Shown: piece after piece, positions 26,223-40,445 of the stretch
How positions within the stretch are numbered: the first letter of the stretch is position 1
Layout: the number at the start of each line of letters is the position of its first letter
Assembly: GCA_949840605.1 (NCBI GenBank)
Contig: CATKXN010000007.1
Span: 1 to 45,803, forward strand
Length of the DNA stretch: 45,803 bases
Direction of reading: 5' to 3'
From: an uncultured Alistipes sp.
Lineage (GTDB): Bacteria; Bacteroidota; Bacteroidia; Bacteroidales; Rikenellaceae
Program-made: the position numbers and the translations under genes
The notes under the pieces: generated by a model
What the model saw: the letters and a program-made list of their open reading frames with translations, nothing else
What the model was told of the DNA's origin: nothing
Databases searched by the model: none

Positions 26223-26414
26223 ATGATTATCATGCCGGTAAAAGAGGGCGAAAACATCGAGCGCGCCCTGAAAAAGTTCAAACGCAAATACGAGCGCACG
26301 GGCGTCCTGAAGGAGCTCCGCCGCCGCCAGTACTTCACCAAGCCTTCGATCGCGAAGCGCGAGGCGATGCAGCACGCCGTATACGTGGAACATATGTACC
26401 GCGACGAGGAATAG
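26223..26414 (+). CDS. rpsU: Small ribosomal subunit protein bS21
   Basis: 63 residues: PVKEGENIERALKKFKRKYE at the N-terminus and a basic middle (KELRRRQYFTKPSIAKRE) are the bS21 pattern; the acidic tail is typical of Bacteroidales. It is a 30S protein near the anti-Shine-Dalgarno end of 16S rRNA. No Shine-Dalgarno is seen before its ATG. It could be read from the TAACTTTG box inside the preceding gene (25926), with a leader near 290 bases. A strong terminator follows. Confidence 0.93.
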   Translation: MIIMPVKEGENIERALKKFKRKYERTGVLKELRRRQYFTKPSIAKREAMQHAVYVEHMYRDEE

Positions 26415-26436
26415 CCCCTGCGGGGCCGACCGAAAA

Positions 26437-26518: not shown

Positions 26519-26526
26519 TATATTTG
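26519..26526 (+). promoter_or_regulatory. -7 box before RNA-like element copy 1
   Basis: TATATTTG, 6 bases before the first conserved base of the element at 26533. The second copy has TACCTTTG at the same distance on the other strand, so the box is shared although the flanks differ. No clear -33. Confidence 0.5.
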
Positions 26527-26532
26527 CATTAC

Positions 26533-26743
26533 GTCCGCCATAGCGGGCCGCTTGACTACACTTGGAAATCTGGAAAATTTTTAGCAAGTGATTAAGCACA
26601 TATTCCTGCTGTTGCGGCGCCCGCGCCGGGACTGGCACGGGATATGATCCTACGTCACAACGGCGCGGGCTATATGTGCTTATTTCTTGCAAGGTTTACC
26701 AGAACCTCAGAGCGAATAAGTAACAGTAGTCCGCGTTCGTTTT
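26533..26743 (+). ncRNA. Candidate structured RNA, copy 1 (211 bases)
   Basis: Nearly identical in its middle ~110 bases to an inverted copy at 33102-33311 and equal in length. Predicted fold: a 5' hairpin CCGC-CATA-GCGG; UCUGG with CCAGA; then a long imperfect stem GCAAGTGATTAAGCACATAT with ATATGTGCTTATTTCTTGC; an inner stem CCCGCGCCG with CGGCGCGGG; and a small hairpin GGATATGATCC. Within the inner stem the copies differ at one base (C here, T there) that keeps pairing as G-U. Both copies share a -7 box 6 bases upstream and the same 3' end (GTAACAGTAGTCCGCG). The antisense reading frame shared by both copies differs at amino-acid-changing positions, so coding is not supported. No known RNA family is claimed. 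Confidence 0.5.
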
Positions 26744-26771
26744 ACGGACGCGCTGCAAAAAACGCCGCGCC

Positions 26772-27035
26772 ATGAATTCTTTCACCCATCCCTGCCGTTC
26801 CCGCACCAGTGACTTTTGCCGCGACGAAGAGCGTCTGCGGTTCGTGCTGCGCGCCTCGGGGCTTACGACCGGACAGTTCGCCCGCGAAATCGGGCTTCCC
26901 GACAGCGAACTTCTCTACCGGATCAAGGCCGGCAAGGCTCCGCTCGGATTCGAGATCGCCGAACGCATCCACCGCCGCTATCCACAGATCGACTCCTGCT
27001 GGCTGCTTACTGGGGAGGTTCGCGGAGCGCAATAG
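26772..27035 (+). CDS. Small HTH (Cro/CI-type) DNA-binding protein
   Basis: 87 residues. Residues ~20-82 fit a short helix-turn-helix of the XRE type: LRFVLRASGLTTGQFAREIG, then LPDSELLYRIKAGKAPLGFE and a helix ending in DSCWLLTGE. The WLLTGE ending is the usual end of phage CI-like DNA-binding domains, and here the protein stops where CI would continue into its dimer domain. It starts 28 bases after the RNA-like element and faces the larger repressor gene; a Cro-like opponent is possible but unproven. Confidence 0.65.
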   Translation: MNSFTHPCRSRTSDFCRDEERLRFVLRASGLTTGQFAREIGLPDSELLYRIKAGKAPLGFEIAERIHRRYPQIDSCWLLTGEVRGAQ

Positions 27036-27112
27036 GGCGGGCGGCAAAAGGACGGATACCGCGGGCGTATTGAATTGCCTCGCTTCGTTTCGGCGATCCG
27101 ATCCTGGCGGCG

Positions 27113-27232
27113 GCAGCGAAAAATCGCGTCGCATAGCGATCCCGGAAACAGTGGGGGAGCGACATTGCGTGTAAAGCCGCTGTCGCTCCCCATTGATTTC
27201 CGGCAATCGGAGATTGCGCGATTTTTCGTTGC
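27113..27232. repeat. 120-bp nested palindrome
   Basis: Three pairs of arms nest in order: GCAGCGAAAAATCGCG (27113-27128) with CGCGATTTTTCGTTGC (27217-27232), one mismatch; CCGGAAA (27142-27148) with TTTCCGG (27197-27203), exact; GGGGAGCGACA (27154-27164) with TGTCGCTCCCC (27181-27191), exact. It fills the space between two convergent regulator genes and ends 6 bases before the repressor stop codon. It could end both transcripts, or be a mobile palindromic element or a DNA target. Confidence 0.75.
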
Positions 27233-27237
27233 TCTTG

Positions 27238-27909
27238 CTAACGGATGGAGTTCATCCTGATGCTCGCCTTGACGAGCGCGATGGCGCGGATGCGCGCGAT
27301 CTCCACCTCCTTGTCGGCGTGGTGGACGTTCTGGCTCACGAGTTTCACGTAGCCTTCCCGGTCGGATTTCTGGATGTATTTCACCGTCACGTACTCCTCG
27401 CCGTCGATGTCGATCGACAGCAGGTACATGTCGCCCCAGAAGATGTCGTCGATGGCGTGCAGCTGCTTGTAGAGCACGATGTCGCCGCTCTTCAGCAGCG
27501 GGTACATCGAGTCCCCGACGATGTAGATCGCTCCGTCGCACTTCGGGAGGTTGGGGATGTGGATGAAGTTGACGGGTTTGGTCTGCGTCCGGTCGGAGAA
27601 CAGAGGCACCAGCCCCGCCGTGCCCTCGATCGAATAGAGGGGCACGCTCTGCAGAGGCAGCGAATTGTCCGTGCGGCGCATGTAGGCCGTCAGGTCGGGT
27701 TCGGCGTTGAACATGCTGCCCTTGCCGGTTTCGAGCCATTCGGGGTTCACGTTCAAATCCTGAACCAGGATGTTGCGGTTGCGGGTCGAGAGGCCCGCCT
27801 TGCCGGTTTCGATCATCGAGAGCGCTGCTTTGCCGATCCCAAGTCGCTGTGCCAGCTGCTCTTGCGTCAGGCCGAGCTGTTTGCGCATCAGTTTTACCCG
27901 TTCGTTCAT
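27238..27909 (-). CDS. Phage-type repressor, HTH plus S24 self-cleaving domain
   Basis: 223 residues. An XRE HTH occupies ~3-60 (MRKQLGLTQEQLAQRLGIGK; NPEWLETGKG at its end). An S24/LexA-like domain (~85-215) has the candidate cleavage site Ala98-Gly99 (IEGTAGLVPL), the nucleophile Ser134 (YIVGDSMYPLLKSGD) and general base Lys177 (EEYVTVKYIQ). All residues needed for RecA-stimulated self-cleavage are present, so it should be an SOS-sensitive repressor like lambda CI. It is divergent from the 95-aa gene and the terminase gene; their promoters overlap (27956-28023). Confidence 0.9.
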   Translation of the reverse strand: MNERVKLMRKQLGLTQEQLAQRLGIGKAALSMIETGKAGLSTRNRNILVQDLNVNPEWLETGKGSMFNAEPDLTAYMRRTDNSLPLQSVPLYSIEGTAGLVPLFSDRTQTKPVNFIHIPNLPKCDGAIYIVGDSMYPLLKSGDIVLYKQLHAIDDIFWGDMYLLSIDIDGEEYVTVKYIQKSDREGYVKLVSQNVHHADKEVEIARIRAIALVKASIRMNSIR

Positions 27910-27931
27910 GGCTTTTGTATTGGAATTATTG

Positions 27932-27967
27932 ATATCGAAAATTTGTAATTTCGTATTGAAAATTCAA
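27932..27967. promoter_or_regulatory. Candidate repressor operators
   Basis: Two adjacent inverted repeats: ATATCGAAA (27932-27940) with TTTCGTAT (27949-27956), and the perfect 12-base palindrome TTGAAAATTCAA (27956-27967). The second covers the -33 TTG of the rightward promoter, so a bound repressor would block rightward transcription. Confidence 0.45.
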
Positions 27968-27985
27968 ATATTGAACTTATCTTTG
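27956..27985 (+). promoter_or_regulatory. Rightward promoter of the 95-aa gene and terminase
   Basis: TTG (27956-27958), 19 bases, TATCTTTG (27978-27985). A transcript from here must cross the -7 and -33 elements of the leftward promoter. Confidence 0.6.
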
Positions 27986-27990
27986 TCCTG

Positions 27991-28023
27991 CAAAGTTAAA
28001 CAATTTATTTTGATTCCTGCAAA
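27991..28023 (-). promoter_or_regulatory. Leftward promoter of the repressor gene
   Basis: On the minus strand TTTG (28023-28020), 21 bases, TAACTTTG (27998-27991). Its -7 box lies 5 bases from the -7 box of the rightward promoter, face to face. RNA polymerase cannot use both at the same time. Repressor leader ~75 bases. Confidence 0.6.
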
Positions 28024-28050
28024 CAATTTCCAAAAAACTATTTATAATCA

Positions 28051-28338
28051 ATGATCTATTCGGTTTCATCGGAACTTTACCTGGAGGTGGCCGCGCGTCT
28101 GGCGGAGGCCATCGGGGGCGGAAGTTACTTTTCGGGTTCGCTCGCCTTCCCTTTCGGCGGCACGGAATGCCGGCTGACGGCCTCGGTGATCGTCTACCGG
28201 CGGGTCGAACGCCTGCCCGAGGGCGACCGGGATGCGATCGCCGACCTGGTGCCCGTGTGGTGGGAGTTTCACACCGCGGGCGACGGCGGCGAGGTGCTCA
28301 ACGACTTCTCGTTCTCCGAACTGCGGACGTATCTCTGA
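28051..28338 (+). CDS. Protein of unknown function, 95 residues
   Basis: Not recognised as a named family. It has an alternating strand/helix pattern: a helix ELYLEVAARLAEAIG, then SYFSGSLAFPFGGTECRLTASVIVYRRVE, then a Trp-rich VPVWWEFHTAGDGGEVLNDFSFSELRTYL. No signal peptide or membrane helix. From memory, similar small proteins with a PVWWEF-type segment occur near Bacteroidales mobile genes, but this was not searched. It is the first gene of the rightward unit controlled by the repressor and precedes the terminase. Confidence 0.7.
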   Translation: MIYSVSSELYLEVAARLAEAIGGGSYFSGSLAFPFGGTECRLTASVIVYRRVERLPEGDRDAIADLVPVWWEFHTAGDGGEVLNDFSFSELRTYL

Positions 28339-28462
28339 CGCTCCGCCCGCACCCCGGCCCCATCCTTTCCCGGCACGGCGCTGCCGCCGGGGTGCAACCC
28401 GCAAAAAAACTGCCCGCCGCGGCGCCGCGCAAGGGTTTTTCTATTACAAACAACTTTTCAAG

Positions 28463-29980
28463 ATGGTTAAAACGACCGAACCGACCTCTGCGGAAACAGC
28501 TTCCGCAGAGGTTTTTATGACTGGCGGGACGGCGTCTCCGAACAATGCCGGCGAGTTGCCGGCTGCCGCCGCGCCTCCCTCCTTCGCCGACTTCGCGCTC
28601 GGGGTCTATCCCTTTCTCGAACTGCAGCCATTCCACCGGACCTATTACCGCGTGCTGGAAGCCTTCGCCGCGGGGCGCATCCGGCGGCTGATCGTCACCA
28701 TGCCGCCCCAGCACGGCAAGAGCGTCGGGGCCACGACCCTGCTTCCGGCCTACGTGCTGGGGCTGGACCCCGACCTGCGGGTCGCCGTGGCCTCCTATTC
28801 GGGTTCGCTGGCCTCGAAGTTCAACCGTCGCGTGCAGCGCATCATCGAATCGCGGGAGTACGCCGCCTTTTTCCCCGGCACCGCCATCAAGCAGGGGGCG
28901 AAGCCCGCCGGCTACATCCGCACGGCCGACGAGGTCGAGATCATCGGCCGCCGCGGCGGACTGCTCTCCGTCGGACGCGAGGGGTCGCTGACGGGCAACC
29001 GCGTGGACTGCTTCGTGCTGGACGACCTCTATAAAGACGCCCTCGAAGCCAATTCGCCGCTCGTCCGCGCCAATTGCTGGGAGTGGTACACCTCGGTGGT
29101 GAGGACCCGCATGCACAACGCCTCGCGCGAACTGATCGTCTTCACGCGCTGGCACGAGGAGGACCTGATCGGCACCCTCGCGGCCCGCGAGCCGGTCGAG
29201 GAGCTGCGCGAGTGGCCGCAACTGGAGAGTCTGCCCGCCGATAGGTGGCTGCACCTCAATTTCGAGGCCCTGAAAAGCGGTCCGCCCACCGGCATCGACC
29301 CCCGGCAGCCCGGCGAAGCGCTGTGGGAGGAGCAGCACGGAGCGGTTCTGCTGGCGGCCAAACGGCGGCTGGACCCCCTGCAGTTCGAAGCGATGTACCA
29401 GGGACATCCCTCGTCCCGCGAGGGACTGCTCTACGGGCTGAATTTCGCCGAGTACGACGATCTTCCGCACGAGATCGTCCGCCGCGCCAACTACACCGAT
29501 ACGGCCGACACGGGCGACGACTATCTCTGCTCGCTCTGCTATGCCGTCGATGCCGACGGGGTGATCTACATCACCGATGCGGTCTATTCGCGCGAACCGA
29601 TGGAGGTGACCGAACCGCTTGTGGGGGAGGCGTTAGTGCGCTCCGACACGCGGCTGGCGGCCGTCGAGAGCAACAACGGCGGCCGCGGCTTCGCCCGGGC
29701 CGTGCAGGCGCTGGCGCCGGGCGTCCGGGTCGAGTGGTTCCACCAGGGCGCCAACAAGGAGGCCCGCATCCTCTCCAACTCGGCCACGGCGCTGCATCTC
29801 CTGCGGTGGCCCCGGGGGTGGAACCTCCGCTGGCCCGAGCTGTACGCCCACCTGACGACCTACCGGCGGAAAGTCCGCGCCAACCGCTGGCACGACGCCG
29901 CCGACGTCGTGACGGGCATCGTCGAGCGCGAGGCCGCCGGCCGCGACCGGAAACGGGTCCGGGGCGTGCGGTTTATGTGA
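28463..29980 (+). CDS. Phage terminase large subunit, intact but without other phage genes
   Basis: 505 residues. The ATPase part has Walker A PPQHGKSV (~81-88) and Walker B CFVLDDLYKD (~183-192), with FTRWHEEDLIG as motif III/coupling region. The RNase H-like nuclease part follows (~345-490): an acidic first strand (DTADTGDDYLCSLCYAVDADG), Glu402 in AAVESNNGG and Asp478 in HDAADVVTG. Terminase packages phage DNA into procapsids and cuts it. No portal, capsid, protease, tail or small terminase gene lies in the window. The upstream ATG (28463) is used here, but a hairpin with a T run ends exactly at the next in-frame ATG (28517), which is a credible alternative start removing 18 poorly ordered residues. 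Confidence 0.88.
   Translation: MVKTTEPTSAETASAEVFMTGGTASPNNAGELPAAAAPPSFADFALGVYPFLELQPFHRTYYRVLEAFAAGRIRRLIVTMPPQHGKSVGATTLLPAYVLGLDPDLRVAVASYSGSLASKFNRRVQRIIESREYAAFFPGTAIKQGAKPAGYIRTADEVEIIGRRGGLLSVGREGSLTGNRVDCFVLDDLYKDALEANSPLVRANCWEWYTSVVRTRMHNASRELIVFTRWHEEDLIGTLAAREPVEELREWPQLESLPADRWLHLNFEALKSGPPTGIDPRQPGEALWEEQHGAVLLAAKRRLDPLQFEAMYQGHPSSREGLLYGLNFAEYDDLPHEIVRRANYTDTADTGDDYLCSLCYAVDADGVIYITDAVYSREPMEVTEPLVGEALVRSDTRLAAVESNNGGRGFARAVQALAPGVRVEWFHQGANKEARILSNSATALHLLRWPRGWNLRWPELYAHLTTYRRKVRANRWHDAADVVTGIVEREAAGRDRKRVRGVRFM
28484..28516 (+). terminator. Terminator-like hairpin at the head of the terminase gene
   Basis: CCTCTGCGGAA and TTCCGCAGAGG (ending at 28511) form a perfect 11-bp stem with a 5-base loop, followed by TTTTT and then directly ATG (28517). 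Position and form suggest an attenuator or end of the transcript of the 95-aa gene, which would separate it from the terminase gene. Confidence 0.6.
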
Positions 29981-30028
29981 TCCGCCGCCGGAACGCACGA
30001 GTTTCTCCGGCAGCCCGTGCGGATGCGG

Positions 30029-30066
30029 AAAAGCCCTGGTTTCCCATCTGGAAACCAGGGCTTTTT
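30029..30066. terminator. Strong bidirectional terminator after the terminase gene
   Basis: AAAAGCCCTGGTTTCC (30029-30044) and GGAAACCAGGGCTTTT (from 30050) form a perfect stem with A and T runs on both sides. It lies between the terminase gene (+) and the lipoprotein gene (-) and seals the rightward unit. Confidence 0.88.
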
Positions 30067-30167
30067 CAGATAAACGGGACGGTTCGGATGAACGGGCGGT
30101 TCGGCCGGCCTCCTTTGTCGGGGAGATCCCCACCGGCCGCGTACCCGTTGCGTCTCCGTCCCGTCGA

Positions 30168-31418
30168 TCATTCGGCTTTCCGGGGCTGCATGAAATTGAG
30201 CGCGATCCCGAACGCATCGGTGTTCTCTTTCCAGATGGTCTCGAATCCGGCGAAATTCTCGATTTGCAGCATCATGAGGAGCATGCCGATCATCTGGACC
30301 GTCTCGTCCTCCGGGTTCTCCTTTTTCATTTGGGCGATCATTTCATCGATCTTCGGGAGTGCCGGCAGCAGCGCCGTGACGAACGGGGCGGCCATCTCCT
30401 TGTCGATGTAGATTTTCAGTGCGCCGTCGCTCGCCGCGTATTTCAGCGGGATGCCGGCGTTCATCCACTCCATGACGGTGGGCAGCAGGGGTGTGATGTC
30501 GATGCCGAATTCGGACAGTGCGCCGATGATCTCCGTCAGAGCCTCCGTGTCGGGAGCCGTGCCGCCGTTGTCCTCGCCGACCTGTCCGAGAATGGCGCCG
30601 ATGCTGGGTACGACGCGGAGGCAGCCGTCCTTGACATACCAGAAAGCCAGGTTTTTCGGCGAACTCAGCCATTCGTTGTTATGTATATCGCTCCAGAGGG
30701 CGTATTTTTCGTCTTCGGAGTAGGACATCGAGTTCAGTACATCGGCGATGTCGGGGGACCCAGTCCAGTATTTGGCGGTGATGTTGCCGTCGGCCGAGAA
30801 AGTCACCTGGTTCAGGTATTGGAAGAGAAACGCGCTGCCGAACGTGGAGACGATCGTCGCCAGGAATTCCGCATTGGGCTTGGCCGCATCGAGGGCGCTC
30901 CAGTCCATCCAGACCGGACCCGTGGCCAGCGTGCCGTCTTCGGCCACCTCCGACTGGTATTGCAGGGCCCAGTTTCCCGTCAGTCCGCCCTGGGCATCGG
31001 CGCTCAGCGCGGAGGTGAGCGTCAGCGAAACTTTACCTTCGGGAGTGATGTTGCCCCGTGCCGCGAGGTTGATGATTATCGGTTCTGCGGCTGCGGACCG
31101 CATGGCCGGACCTGTCGTCAGGCCCTTTTCGCCGGAGATGTCGAACGACCCGTCGGGTTTTTCTGACAGCGCGACGGCCATCGAGACCTCCGCATAACCG
31201 GGCAGTACGCCGGTCAGCAGCAGCGTGCCCTGGGTGGCGCTCGAAGCGGTCAGCTGCACGCTTCCGGAGTTGGCGTCTCCGTTGACGGTCAGCGTGGCGT
31301 CCGCGCCCGTGATGGGGGCGGTGGGAAGTTGTTTCCAGGCGGGAGTTTCCCCGTCGTCGTCGCAGGCCGTGAACGACAGCGCTGCGGCCATGACCAGTAA
31401 GGTTAAGATTTTTTTCAT
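30168..31418 (-). CDS. Bacteroidota lipoprotein of unassigned family (DUF4925-like at best)
   Basis: 416 residues from the ATG at 31418. A lipoprotein signal peptide ends at Cys19 (LSFTAC), followed at once by three Asp; acidic residues after the cysteine are the known surface-export signal in Bacteroidetes lipoproteins, so it may face outward. The mature part has a Ser/Thr-rich beta region with repeated 'LTL-S' strands (~35-150), a middle rich in aromatic residues (KYWTGSPDIADVLNSMSYSEDEKY) and a helical C-terminus (LLPALPKIDEMIAQMKKENP). It resembles gut Bacteroidetes DUF lipoproteins of ~400 residues; exact family uncertain. It has its own promoter and shares the terminator at 30029-30066. 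Confidence 0.8.
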   Translation of the reverse strand: MKKILTLLVMAAALSFTACDDDGETPAWKQLPTAPITGADATLTVNGDANSGSVQLTASSATQGTLLLTGVLPGYAEVSMAVALSEKPDGSFDISGEKGLTTGPAMRSAAAEPIIINLAARGNITPEGKVSLTLTSALSADAQGGLTGNWALQYQSEVAEDGTLATGPVWMDWSALDAAKPNAEFLATIVSTFGSAFLFQYLNQVTFSADGNITAKYWTGSPDIADVLNSMSYSEDEKYALWSDIHNNEWLSSPKNLAFWYVKDGCLRVVPSIGAILGQVGEDNGGTAPDTEALTEIIGALSEFGIDITPLLPTVMEWMNAGIPLKYAASDGALKIYIDKEMAAPFVTALLPALPKIDEMIAQMKKENPEDETVQMIGMLLMMLQIENFAGFETIWKENTDAFGIALNFMQPRKAE

Positions 31419-31459
31419 TTGTTTGAATTTAGTAAAGGAAGTGCTTTTCCCTTTTGTGT

Positions 31460-31491
31460 CAAAGGTAGTTAGCCCTCGTGTGCCGGGCAAA
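31460..31491 (-). promoter_or_regulatory. Promoter of the lipoprotein gene
   Basis: On the minus strand TTTG (31491-31488), 20 bases, TACCTTTG (31467-31460): full match. Leader about 35 bases. The stretch 31500-31690 beyond it shows nothing else recognisable. Confidence 0.65.
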
Positions 31492-31708
31492 TAAATTCAT
31501 CGGAGGAGGGTATTTTCATCACGAACGCAGGGTTTTCAATTACGGCGCGTTTTCCGGGCCCCGCGACGGGCTTCGCCGGGCGTCCGGACGCTGTCTCGCA
31601 GGCGGGTAATGTGAAGCCTGCGTTAAATATGTTCCCGCGCGGAACCAAACGAACCGTTTTTCCGTACCTTAGCTGCGGTAATGTAACCGAATTTTGACAA
31701 TAAACGGA

Positions 31709-32797
31709 ATGAAATCACTGAAAATCGGAAATTTATGCGCCTCCATGCCCATCGTTCAGGGCGGCATGGGCGTAGGCGTGTCCCTCGCGGGCCTGGCTTC
31801 GGCCGTGGCCAATCAGGGCGGGGTCGGCGTGATCTCGTCGGCGGGCCTCGGGGTGATCTATAACGACTATTCGAAGGACTACCGTGCGGCTTCGATCTGG
31901 GGGCTGAAGGAGGAGCTCCGCAAGGCCCGCGAAGCCACGCGCGGCATCATCGGCGTCAACGTCATGGTCGCCATGTCGAATTTCGCCGATATGGTGCGCA
32001 CCGCCGTCGCCGAGAAGGCCGACATCATCTTCTCGGGAGCCGGACTGCCGCTCAACCTGCCGTCGTTCCTGACCGAGGGCGCCAAGACCAAGCTGGCCCC
32101 GATCGTTTCGTCGGCGCGCGCCGCGAAAGTGCTGTGCCGGAAATGGTTCTCGGAGTACAGCTATATCCCCGACGCCATCGTCGTCGAGGGCCCCAAGGCA
32201 GGCGGGCACCTGGGTTACAAGGCCGAGCAGATCGCCGACGAGCACTACTCGCTGGAAACGATCGTTCCGGAGATCGTCGCCGAAATCCGGGCTTTCGAAC
32301 ACGAGCACGACTGCCATATCCCGGTGATCGCCGGCGGGGGCATCTACACGGGCGAGGACATCTACCGCATCATGGAGCTGGGCGCCGACGGCGTGCAGAT
32401 GGGCACGCGCTTCGTCACGACCGAGGAGTGCGACGCCGATCCGGCCTTCAAGCAGAGCTATATCGAGGCCCGCGAGGCGGACATCGAGATCATCCAGAGC
32501 CCTGTCGGCATGCCGGGGCGGGCCATCCACAACTCGTTCCTCGACCGGGTGAAGGAGGGGCTGAAACGCCCGAAGAACTGCCCATTCGACTGCATCAAGA
32601 CCTGCGACGTGACGCACAGCCCCTATTGCATCATGCTGGCCCTCTACAACGCCTTCAAGGGCAAACTCCGCAACGGTTACGCCTTCTGCGGGGCGAACGC
32701 CTGGCGCGCCGAGAAAATCCAGTCGGTGCGCGACCTGATGGCCTCGCTGCGGACCGAGTACGACACTTTTGCAGCCGGCTTGAGAAGCCGTTTTTAG
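31709..32797 (+). CDS. Nitronate monooxygenase / FabK-like flavoprotein
   Basis: 362 residues from the ATG at 31709, a TIM-barrel FMN enzyme of the 2-nitropropane dioxygenase family. Landmarks: PIVQGGMGVGVS near the N-terminus, FSGAGLPLNLP, VVEGPKAGGHLG, VIAGGGIYTGEDIYRIMELGADGVQMGTRF (phosphate-binding part of FMN). The C-terminal third has a cysteine cluster, NCPFDCIKTCDVTHSPYC, seen in one branch of the family and perhaps structural or metal-binding. Function could be nitronate oxidation or an enoyl reductase-type step; FabK is not proven. An upstream TTG (31694) in the same frame is less likely. Confidence 0.88.
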   Translation: MKSLKIGNLCASMPIVQGGMGVGVSLAGLASAVANQGGVGVISSAGLGVIYNDYSKDYRAASIWGLKEELRKAREATRGIIGVNVMVAMSNFADMVRTAVAEKADIIFSGAGLPLNLPSFLTEGAKTKLAPIVSSARAAKVLCRKWFSEYSYIPDAIVVEGPKAGGHLGYKAEQIADEHYSLETIVPEIVAEIRAFEHEHDCHIPVIAGGGIYTGEDIYRIMELGADGVQMGTRFVTTEECDADPAFKQSYIEAREADIEIIQSPVGMPGRAIHNSFLDRVKEGLKRPKNCPFDCIKTCDVTHSPYCIMLALYNAFKGKLRNGYAFCGANAWRAEKIQSVRDLMASLRTEYDTFAAGLRSRF

Positions 32798-32845
32798 GGG
32801 CGATGGCAGGGGCGTAAGCAGCGGTTCCGGTCCGTACCCCCCCCC

Positions 32846-32980
32846 TCTGAACCCGTTCTTAAATGGGTTCGGCGCGAACCGGTTGCCGCCGGCACAAATC
32901 CGCGATCCGCGCTTCCGATCCCTTCTGACCCCGTCTCTTAGATGGGTTCGGCGCGAACCAGCCGCCGCCGGCATCAACCC
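32846..32980. repeat. Two direct copies of a ~78-base intergenic unit
   Basis: CTGAACCCGTTCTTAAATGGGTTCGGCGCGAACC (from 32847) and CTGACCCCGTCTCTTAGATGGGTTC (from about 32925) share the 18-mer ATGGGTTCGGCGCGAACC followed by GCCGCCGGCA. Each begins with a short ACCC...GGGT hairpin round a CTCTTAG-like loop, close to the motif at 2795-2900 and that at 43495-43590. No gene is in 32798-33101. Confidence 0.65.
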
Positions 32981-32982
32981 GT

Positions 32983-33016
32983 AACCCCTCCCGGATGCAT
33001 TCCGGGAGGGGTTTTT
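32983..33016. terminator. Perfect palindromic terminator
   Basis: CCCCTCCCGGA and TCCGGGAGGGG pair round TGCAT, with AA before and TTTTT after. It lies ~190 bases past the nitronate monooxygenase gene, beyond the direct repeats. Confidence 0.82.
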
Positions 33017-33101
33017 CATACCCATTCGGGATAAGGCGCAAAGAGGACCGGGGGTATGTCCCTTACGTCGGTGAGCAGCCGCCCGATGCCGTTTATGCCC
33101 C

Positions 33102-33311
33102 AAAACGAACGCGGACTACTGTTACTATTCCACCGATGGCTCTGGCAAGCCCTGCAAGAAATAAGCACATATAGCCCGCGCCGTTGTGACGTAGGATCAT
33201 ATCCCGTGCCAGTCCCGGCGCAGGCGCCGCAACAGCAGGAATATGTGCTTAATCACTTGCTAAAAATTTACCAGATTTCAGAGCCTGATTAAGCGGCCCG
33301 CTATCGCGGAC
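33102..33311 (-). ncRNA. Candidate structured RNA, copy 2 (210 bases), inverted
   Basis: Reverse-strand copy of the element at 26533-26743, with a TACCTTTG -7 box at 33325-33318, 6 bases upstream. The 5' hairpin reads CCGC-GATA-GCGG (loop changed, stem kept); the inner stem reads CCUGCGCCG with CGGCGCGGG (G-U kept); the outer pairing can use GGCUCUG with CAGAGCC, which copy 1 lacks. The two copies point toward each other over 6.8 kb. No gene follows on its strand within 300 bases, so it is not a leader. The flank 33326-33440 holds nothing recognisable. Confidence 0.5.
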
Positions 33312-33442
33312 ATGAAACAAAGGTATGGAAAAAAACGATCGCGCGCAACTCCGAGCCGCATTTTTTCCGGCCGCCGCACCGGAACCGGACGAAGCCAGCA
33401 AATAAAATCCGGATTTTGGCGGACCAATTCCGGAATTTTTTG

Positions 33443-39413: not shown

Positions 39414-40445
39414 ATGGCAGACTACAAATACACCCCTGCGGATTTCAAGAGCGACCAGGAGGTACGCTGGTGTCCCGGATGCGGCGACCACGCCATACTC
39501 AGCGCCGTGCAGCGCGCGCTGCCCGAGATCGCCGACGCGCTCGACACGCCCCACAACCTGTTCACGTTCGTGTCGGGCATCGGATGCTCGTCGCGTTTCA
39601 TCTACTACATGAAGACCTACGGGTTCCACTCCGTGCACGGACGCGCCAACGCCGTGGCGACGGGCGTCAAGACCGCCAATCCGCGCCTCTCGGTGTGGGT
39701 GACGACGGGCGACGGCGACTCGCTGGCCATCGGCGGCAACCACTTCATCCACGCCATCCGCCGCAACGTGGACCTGAACGTCATCCTGTTCAACAACGAG
39801 ATCTACGGCCTCACCAAAGGCCAGTACTCCCCCACCTCGAAGCTGGGCAAGATCACCAAGACCTCGCCTTACGGCACGGTCGAGAAGCCGTTCAACCCCG
39901 GCGAGCTGGTGATCGGCGCCAAGGGCACGTTCTTCGCCCGCACGATCGACATGGAGGTCCAGCTTTCGAAAGAGTGCCTGATCGCCGCCGCCAAGCACAA
40001 GGGCATGTCGGTGATCGAGGCGCTGCAGAACTGCGTGATATTCAACGACAAGACCCACTACGACTTCGCCGCCGACAAAGCCACGCGCGCCGAGCGCACC
40101 GTCGTGCTGCGCCACGGCGAGAAGATGCTCTTCGGAGCCAATAAGGAAAAAGGTCTCGTGTTCGAGAACATGAAGCTCAAGGTGGTGACCGTCGGTCAGG
40201 ACGGCTATACGCTGGACGATGTGCTGACGCACGACGCCCACGAGCGCGACACGACGCTGCATTCGATGCTGGCGGCGATGAAATACCCCGACTATCCGGT
40301 CGCCGTGGGCGTGATCCGCGAGGTCGAGGACGACGCGGTGTACGACCGTGCCGTGGAACGCCAGGTCGAGGAGGTGAAAGCCGCGAGCAGGATTCACTGC
40401 GTGGACGACCTGCTGCGTTCGGGCGCCACGTGGGAGGTGGAATAA
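39414..40445 (+). CDS. korB: 2-oxoacid:ferredoxin oxidoreductase beta subunit
   Basis: 343 residues. WCPGCGDHAILSAVQRAL is the cysteine-rich N-terminus; the TPP motif is TTGDGDSLAIGGNH; SGIGCSSRFIYYMKTYGFHSVHGRA precedes it. The Cys residues WCPGCG and IGCSS plus one further Cys (QNCVIF) could bind the [4Fe-4S] cluster as in this family. It starts 2 bases after the korA stop, so the subunits are made in step. A terminator follows. Confidence 0.95.
   Translation: MADYKYTPADFKSDQEVRWCPGCGDHAILSAVQRALPEIADALDTPHNLFTFVSGIGCSSRFIYYMKTYGFHSVHGRANAVATGVKTANPRLSVWVTTGDGDSLAIGGNHFIHAIRRNVDLNVILFNNEIYGLTKGQYSPTSKLGKITKTSPYGTVEKPFNPGELVIGAKGTFFARTIDMEVQLSKECLIAAAKHKGMSVIEALQNCVIFNDKTHYDFAADKATRAERTVVLRHGEKMLFGANKEKGLVFENMKLKVVTVGQDGYTLDDVLTHDAHERDTTLHSMLAAMKYPDYPVAVGVIREVEDDAVYDRAVERQVEEVKAASRIHCVDDLLRSGATWEVE

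Follow-up and report, generated by a model that had tools for sequence, protein, structure and literature searches.

Two inverted copies of a putative structured 5′ leader RNA in an Alistipes contig and their relatives across Bacteroidota

Introduction

Riboswitches and other structured leaders lie between a promoter and a start codon, can contain a pseudoknot and a U-run by the closing helix, and in the known classes mostly precede genes of a single pathway, while 6S RNA has the shape of a long rod. Here we describe an RNA element of which two copies, A and B, lie in inverted orientation in a 45,803-nt stretch of DNA from an uncultured Alistipes sp. (GCA_949840605.1, contig CATKXN010000007.1, forward strand, positions 1 to 45,803; hereafter the window). 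Sequence comparison suggests that each element probably belongs to an undescribed Bacteroidota family of structured RNAs, each copy serving as the 5′ untranslated leader of an mRNA. The leader RNA shares with riboswitches and other leaders the position between promoter and start codon, the (predicted) pseudoknot and the U-run, but differs from riboswitches in that 55 Pfam families are found over 145 proteins encoded behind it, and in that it matches no Rfam class at the curated score. Its rod resembles that of 6S RNA and 6S-Flavo RNA, from which it differs by its many copies, its place before genes and the lack of an Rfam match in the copies scanned.

A multicopy RNA family with canonical promoters is already described for Bacteroidales, namely the paralogous FopS small RNAs (sRNAs) of Bacteroides, which are about 65-70 nt long, consist of a single-stranded 5′ part and a terminator hairpin, and act in trans (PMC11697453). 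By contrast, the leader RNA is knotted, has a core of about 150-220 nt and is placed before open reading frames (ORFs). A survey of the human microbiome lists 3,161 structured RNA candidates, Bacteroidetes included, of which 508 lie within 25 bp upstream of genes; some occupy possible 5′ untranslated regions of HTH_XRE genes, and an Alistipes example is located 49 bp before L20 (PMC8040213). None of the examples named in the available part of that source fits the leader RNA, and the literature examined holds no description of the family. An overlap with one of the 3,161 candidates, above all with those before HTH_XRE genes, is possible.

Conserved Structure of the RNA Family

A preliminary description of the window had reported both copies, each with a TAnnTTTG box six bases upstream, and these are present as described:

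26519..26526, plus strand: TAnnTTTG promoter box of copy A, TATATTTG
26533..26743, plus strand: copy A of the leader RNA; covariance-model match 26539-26740, 123 bits
33102..33311, minus strand: copy B of the leader RNA; covariance-model match 33105-33305, 110 bits; poor P2, weak Y
33318..33325 (read 33325-33318), minus strand: TAnnTTTG promoter box of copy B, TACCTTTG

The two copies are near-identical over about 115 bases and divergent beyond. That they are structured, as had been proposed, is borne out by folding, since none of 200 dinucleotide shuffles equals the fold of copy A (-87.5 kcal/mol, z -6.1) or that of copy B (-88.9 kcal/mol, z -4.8).

The first homologue (L002; L-numbers denote loci with relatives of the RNA) was found in Alistipes sp. 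An66 through one exact pattern and led to searches of genomes of the same genus, the matches of which, read by eye, vary in their letters while the pairing stays. The covariance model R1 comprises 26 copies, A and B included, with 200 positions and 64 pairs. The alignment behind it came from MAFFT, without structural input, and RNAalifold selected the pairs from that alignment. At its defaults RNAalifold did not detect the rod in the mixed alignment; RIBOSUM scoring under other settings recovered it. A scan of the window with this model, which has A and B in its training set, returns exactly these two. Beyond the window, R1 matches 139 of 151 genomes in the genus of An66 (E-value cut-off 0.01, with no more than 16 candidates scored in each genome), 95 of 295 in the order (cut-off 0.001, with 8 scored), 46 of 295 in the class (8 scored; 43 of the 46 hold one to three matches) and 20 of 247 in the phylum (10 scored), the taxon samples overlapping and having one genome (G001) common to all. 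In another phylum, reached through locus L001, there is no match in 201 genomes, nor in a single genome searched at E up to 1. Three genomes for which 150 candidates were scored hold 17, 29 and 27 matches, scattered over the chromosome (the 17 take in one opposite-strand palindromic match), in agreement with the multicopy structured RNA that had been suggested.

The comparisons below use 154 copies, the model matches that remain in the fetched loci once 2 duplicates and 12 palindromic matches on the opposite strand are removed. The core, closed by helix P1, contains a rod of P2, P3 and P4 that is tipped by hairpin P5. Two more helices predicted by sequence comparison, X and Y, would join the rod's two ends. 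The motif GACAUAU precedes the core, with ACATAT just ahead of P1 in 92 of the 154 copies (1 in the control), and a T-run lies 3′ of P1 in 131 (10 in the control). In the RNA, P1 is thus followed by a U-run and then by a hairpin whose loop pairs (helix Z) with the bases immediately 5′ of the 3′ strand of P1, so that the Z partner bases and conserved pairing extend beyond the T-run toward the start codon. The helices are located in the window copies as follows:

26533..26548, plus strand: 5′ hairpin of copy A (GUCCGC-CAUA-GCGGGC), from folding; kept in seven same-subtype relatives (by reading)
26542..26545, partner 26734-26737, plus strand: P1 5′ strand of copy A; alignment columns 4-7 with 229-232, paired in 26 of 26 rows
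26550..26555, partner 26592-26597, plus strand: X 5′ strand of copy A (GCUUGA), from the partner search
26569..26580, partner within 26692-26703, plus strand: P3 5′ strand of copy A, bearing the conserved AAAUCUGGNAAAUUU
26584..26588, partner 26686-26690, plus strand: P4 5′ strand of copy A, five pairs; family-wide z 53
26619..26628, partner 26661-26670, plus strand: P5 5′ strand of copy A
26677..26683, partner 26716-26722, plus strand: Y 5′ strand of copy A; family-wide z 11.4
26729..26733, partner 26745-26749, plus strand: Z 5′ strand of copy A (GUCCG); family-wide z 20.4
33247..33294 (33294-33286 with 33255-33247), minus strand: X of copy B, nine pairs

In the 26-copy alignment 84.8% of the cells at paired columns are paired, compared with 74.4% in shuffles and 37-51% when the partners are slid by 1-3 columns, and 193 cells are changed on both sides, compared with 72 and 36-59, respectively. 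Because the pairs were picked on the same alignment, the slid comparison favours them and permutation tests are fairer. In such a test, exchange of partners among the 154 copies gave z values of 59 for P2, 53 for P4, 20.4 for Z, 13.6 for X and 11.4 for Y, with four negative controls between -2.3 and 1.3; when the set was reduced to 74 dissimilar representatives, none of 200 permutations scored as high for any of these five helices, and Z retained a z of 14. P3 is more uniform, seven of its 11 pairs being invariant in the 26 rows. Variable pairs hold 206 G-U and 55 A-C cells, as expected for an RNA on this strand, a figure helped by the pair-choosing method, which scores G-U as paired. Thus the structure is conserved through compensatory changes across the family, as would be expected of a cis-regulatory leader, and the earlier claim that the changes between copies A and B preserve pairing holds for the family at large; the C-to-U change said to keep a G-U pair is real and located in P5. 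The RNA family and its structure are very likely real.

The 5′ hairpin has a stem of at least five pairs in 55 of 105 copies (26 expected) and was rejected as a family-wide feature, as it is confined to some subtypes. X and Y overlap P2 and P4, mostly by 0-4 nt at the junctions; in copy A an alternative X (26559-26564 with 26585-26590) overlaps P4. Since X, Y and Z, in addition to the rod, cannot all be drawn flat, the pairing points to either a multi-pseudoknot or competing folds. Should X and Y coexist with P2-P4, the fold may be a new RNA architecture.

The element matches no named family at curated Rfam scores, in line with the preliminary description, which knew of none. At curated scores, Rfam 15 finds one tRNA only in the window and nothing on copies A or B, and at the gathering score nothing over the RNA copies of 20 relative loci, which elsewhere contain tRNAs and a SAM-II riboswitch. 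More permissive scans yielded a single match around copy A (MEG8_1, E 2.7) and, at E up to 1 in two further sets of 10 and 12 scans, one weak match that touches an RNA copy, U4 (E 0.14) at one end of the copy of L014 in the first set; the second set gave none on the copies. 6S RNA was rejected, as neither RF00013 nor RF01685, the 6S-Flavo family listed in PMC2864571, matches the copies scanned; a whole-genome search with RF01685 found nothing, with the controls likewise remaining without a match. The SAM-II riboswitch is located at L016 1914-1972, near one RNA copy.

Position Ahead of Genes and Proposed Mechanism

An ORF on the same strand (ATG start, at least 50 aa, within 250 nt) follows the RNA in 149 of 154 copies, with a median start 56 nt past P1, compared with 84 of 154 in a control that runs the same test on the opposite strand, away from the 5′ end. 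By a simple rule (charged start plus hydrophobic stretch), 104 of the 149 downstream ORFs look exported, compared with 10 of the 84 controls, and by the same rule 53 look like lipoproteins, compared with 3; both the 149 and the 104 take in the probable shadow ORF of copy B (see below), and at L003 the test chose a frame other than the helix-turn-helix (HTH) frame. On the other side, 125 of 148 copies carry a TAnnTTTG box no more than 100 nt upstream of P1, compared with 9 and 4 in two control stretches; this motif is the sigma-A consensus, the housekeeping promoter motif of the group (PMC9723704). At the level of sequence, the family, its helices, its promoter box and its fixed place before ORFs are therefore established, and a position between promoter and same-strand start codon is found for the family and for copy A, but not convincingly for copy B. 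The element is likely a 5′ leader.

The Pfam families behind the RNA (25 shown) include BACON, BspA-like LRR, outer-membrane barrels, lipocalin-like proteins, HEPN and a restriction endonuclease, and PADLOC recognizes two defence proteins among the 145. The class-wide copies L170 and L174 precede ORFs that by eye resemble DNA methyltransferases, and L165, one of ten class-wide loci shown, has no ORF listed behind the RNA.

In the proposed mechanism, transcription would start from the TAnnTTTG promoter, and the 5′ hairpin (in some subtypes) and GACAUAU would be made first, followed by the P1-closed core with its P2-P3-P4 rod, the P5 tip, and X and Y tying the rod ends. We infer that the RNA acts in cis, the state of P1 and Z deciding either read-through at the U-run or access of the ribosome. 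Because X and Y mostly share 0-4 nt with P2 and P4, a signal-driven branch migration between them could act as the switch. The small HTH gene downstream of copy A would be under the control of that copy, while copy B may be orphaned.

Several observations weigh against a leader of this kind. No common pathway is evident from Pfam among the 145 downstream proteins, and none of their 55 Pfam families occurs in more than seven of them, which is unusual for a riboswitch. Copy B has no convincing gene downstream. The longest stop-free runs within the 154 copies have a median of 53 codons, compared with 41 in shuffles; with regard to these runs a leader peptide was considered and tentatively set aside, as a short ATG-led frame is, by reading, present in some copies and absent from others. 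The T-run after P1 would also be compatible with a free RNA that terminates there. Moreover, the partner search takes the best helix in each copy, so that only the excess over permutations counts, and the 154 copies are a non-random sample, picked by score and joined by nearly all copies of three genomes. A known family or broken stems had been named beforehand as grounds against a new RNA: no Rfam family matches and the homologues keep the helices, but P2 is poor in the window copies, with only 2 (A) and 3 (B) unbroken pairs. Likewise, X scores 12.5 in copy A against a permuted mean of 12.3, despite its family-wide z, and Z scores close to the permuted means in both window copies (14 vs 12.2 in copy A). 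As several helices are weak in the window's own copies, the structural case rests on the family.

Alternative Explanations

The preliminary description had offered, among other options, a multicopy non-coding RNA; its structured nature has stood, but a free-standing RNA fits less well. A multicopy small RNA that ends at the T-run past P1 and acts in trans would account for the promoter box and the T-run, and multicopy trans-acting RNAs such as FopS do occur in Bacteroides (PMC11697453). However, Z pairs beyond the T-run in both the full and the reduced set of copies, and the RNA precedes a same-strand ORF in nearly every copy at a short distance, so that a free sRNA is improbable as the full account. 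Attenuation would yield both a short and a long product, and the two readings could therefore both hold in part. A structure that acts at the DNA level, an inverted-repeat element or an attC-like recombination site devoid of RNA function, would account for long inverted repeats with variable arms, yet the excess of G-U over A-C at variable pairs, the promoter box, the orientation toward ORFs, and the dispersal of the copies outside any cassette array make it very improbable.

The repeated nature of the family also suits a mobile element or recombination platform, in which a DNA unit of promoter and RNA spreads and genes are exchanged at its 3′ end. Indeed, one genome holds 29 dispersed copies, and in most of the similar copy pairs listed (80 of 268) the resemblance is confined to the stretch between about -75 or -11 and about +5 or +44. 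Five sites align unbroken over the 500-base left flank, two with the same downstream gene and three with a different one (L043/L047, L020/L038 and L012/L088), the break falling 27-44 nt after P1. At L175/L176, one of three swapped sites, 1,540 bases are shared at 96% up to the break, followed by 3.0 and 2.5 kb of unrelated genes and then by 1,514 bases at 93%; two further swapped pairs, compared on the left side, have the left flank and the RNA in common. A and B diverge in their P2 arms yet have almost identical cores, a pattern that gene conversion would produce. By contrast, no target-site repeat and no transposase or integrase partner was seen, though these were not searched for systematically, and the fixed orientation before ORFs together with the matched changes suggests selection on the RNA. 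In addition, the right junction at L175/L176 falls inside a gene, which makes homologous recombination via the repeated leaders no less likely than a dedicated enzyme. Mobility as the whole explanation is thus unlikely, and a role in recombination may exist alongside the leader role rather than in its place. The ends for recombination that had been proposed for the window hold to the extent that the family is repeated and genes are swapped behind one orthologous copy, but a pair of copies bounding a region is less supported.

At the exchanged site a GIY-YIG-like ORF (by reading) lies immediately behind the RNA at L175 3475-4194, and the PADLOC match to PD-T4-3 is probably this protein. A phage element was rejected, as four exact patterns are without a match in viral contigs. 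Phage and plasmid records contain nothing apart from two weak matches, each of 40 bases, to a single Synechococcus phage and one phage-labelled record, the faecal scaffold L184 (MT838511.1), which carries an RNA copy of 154 bits. Its genes read as chromosomal, with a WYL-type regulator before the RNA, and the phage label may be wrong.

A more far-reaching form of the leader reading, which we hold tentatively and consider doubtful as a whole, is a phylum-wide portable leader with interlocked helices, including a P2-P3-P4 ring closed by X and Y, which would bring unrelated accessory genes, among them surface lipoproteins, defence genes and small regulators, under a common RNA-sensed control and would also serve as a repeat for their exchange. 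A structured leader that is matched in 139 of the 151 genus genomes sampled, occurs in 29 copies in one genome and lies mostly ahead of exported accessory proteins would in itself be a regulatory layer overlooked in major gut bacteria. The family thereby frames a testable question of one leader, many genes and perhaps one signal.

Genes Around the Two Window Copies

The two copies point inward over a 6.8-kb accessory region, as the preliminary description had stated. This holds for their position, but not for a function of the pair, since copy A goes with the ORF right behind it:

26772..27035, plus strand: small ORF of 87 aa led by copy A; weak Xre-like HTH match, under its cut-off

Downstream of the RNA at L008, L009 and L073 lie ORFs with 50-52% identity to this one; the ORF at L032 has 35%, and those at L006 and L035 show no resemblance. 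The ORF picked behind copy B is most likely an antisense shadow of a nitronate monooxygenase gene. A role of the copies as borders of the region or in its inversion was set aside as less supported, as nothing links both to it as a pair.

Within the region a CI/S24-type repressor (27238-27909) lies beside a terminase-like ORF (28232-29980; Pfam Terminase_6N, 26.8 bits), which stands alone; no phage genes other than these two are found among the seven window ORFs scanned. Elsewhere in the window ARAGORN reports a tRNA-Ser at 39566-39644, inside a coding ORF and without support from Rfam, which is likely false.

As to the flanks in genomes without the copies, which had been proposed for comparison, the rpsU side is similar in six relatives, but the similarity stops at 26413-26421, immediately past rpsU, with no further match up to 37500. 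None of the six (2.2 to 14.5 kb read per relative) has an RNA copy directly behind rpsU, in the place of copy A. Both observations indicate that the region is particular to this genome. L193 carries an RNA copy on the opposite strand, about 7.8 kb beyond rpsU. In the three relatives read further the content after rpsU varies, with a glutamine-synthetase-like gene in L193 and L194 and another gene in L192 (by reading), and window position 26421, just past rpsU, is a recurrent breakpoint among the relatives.

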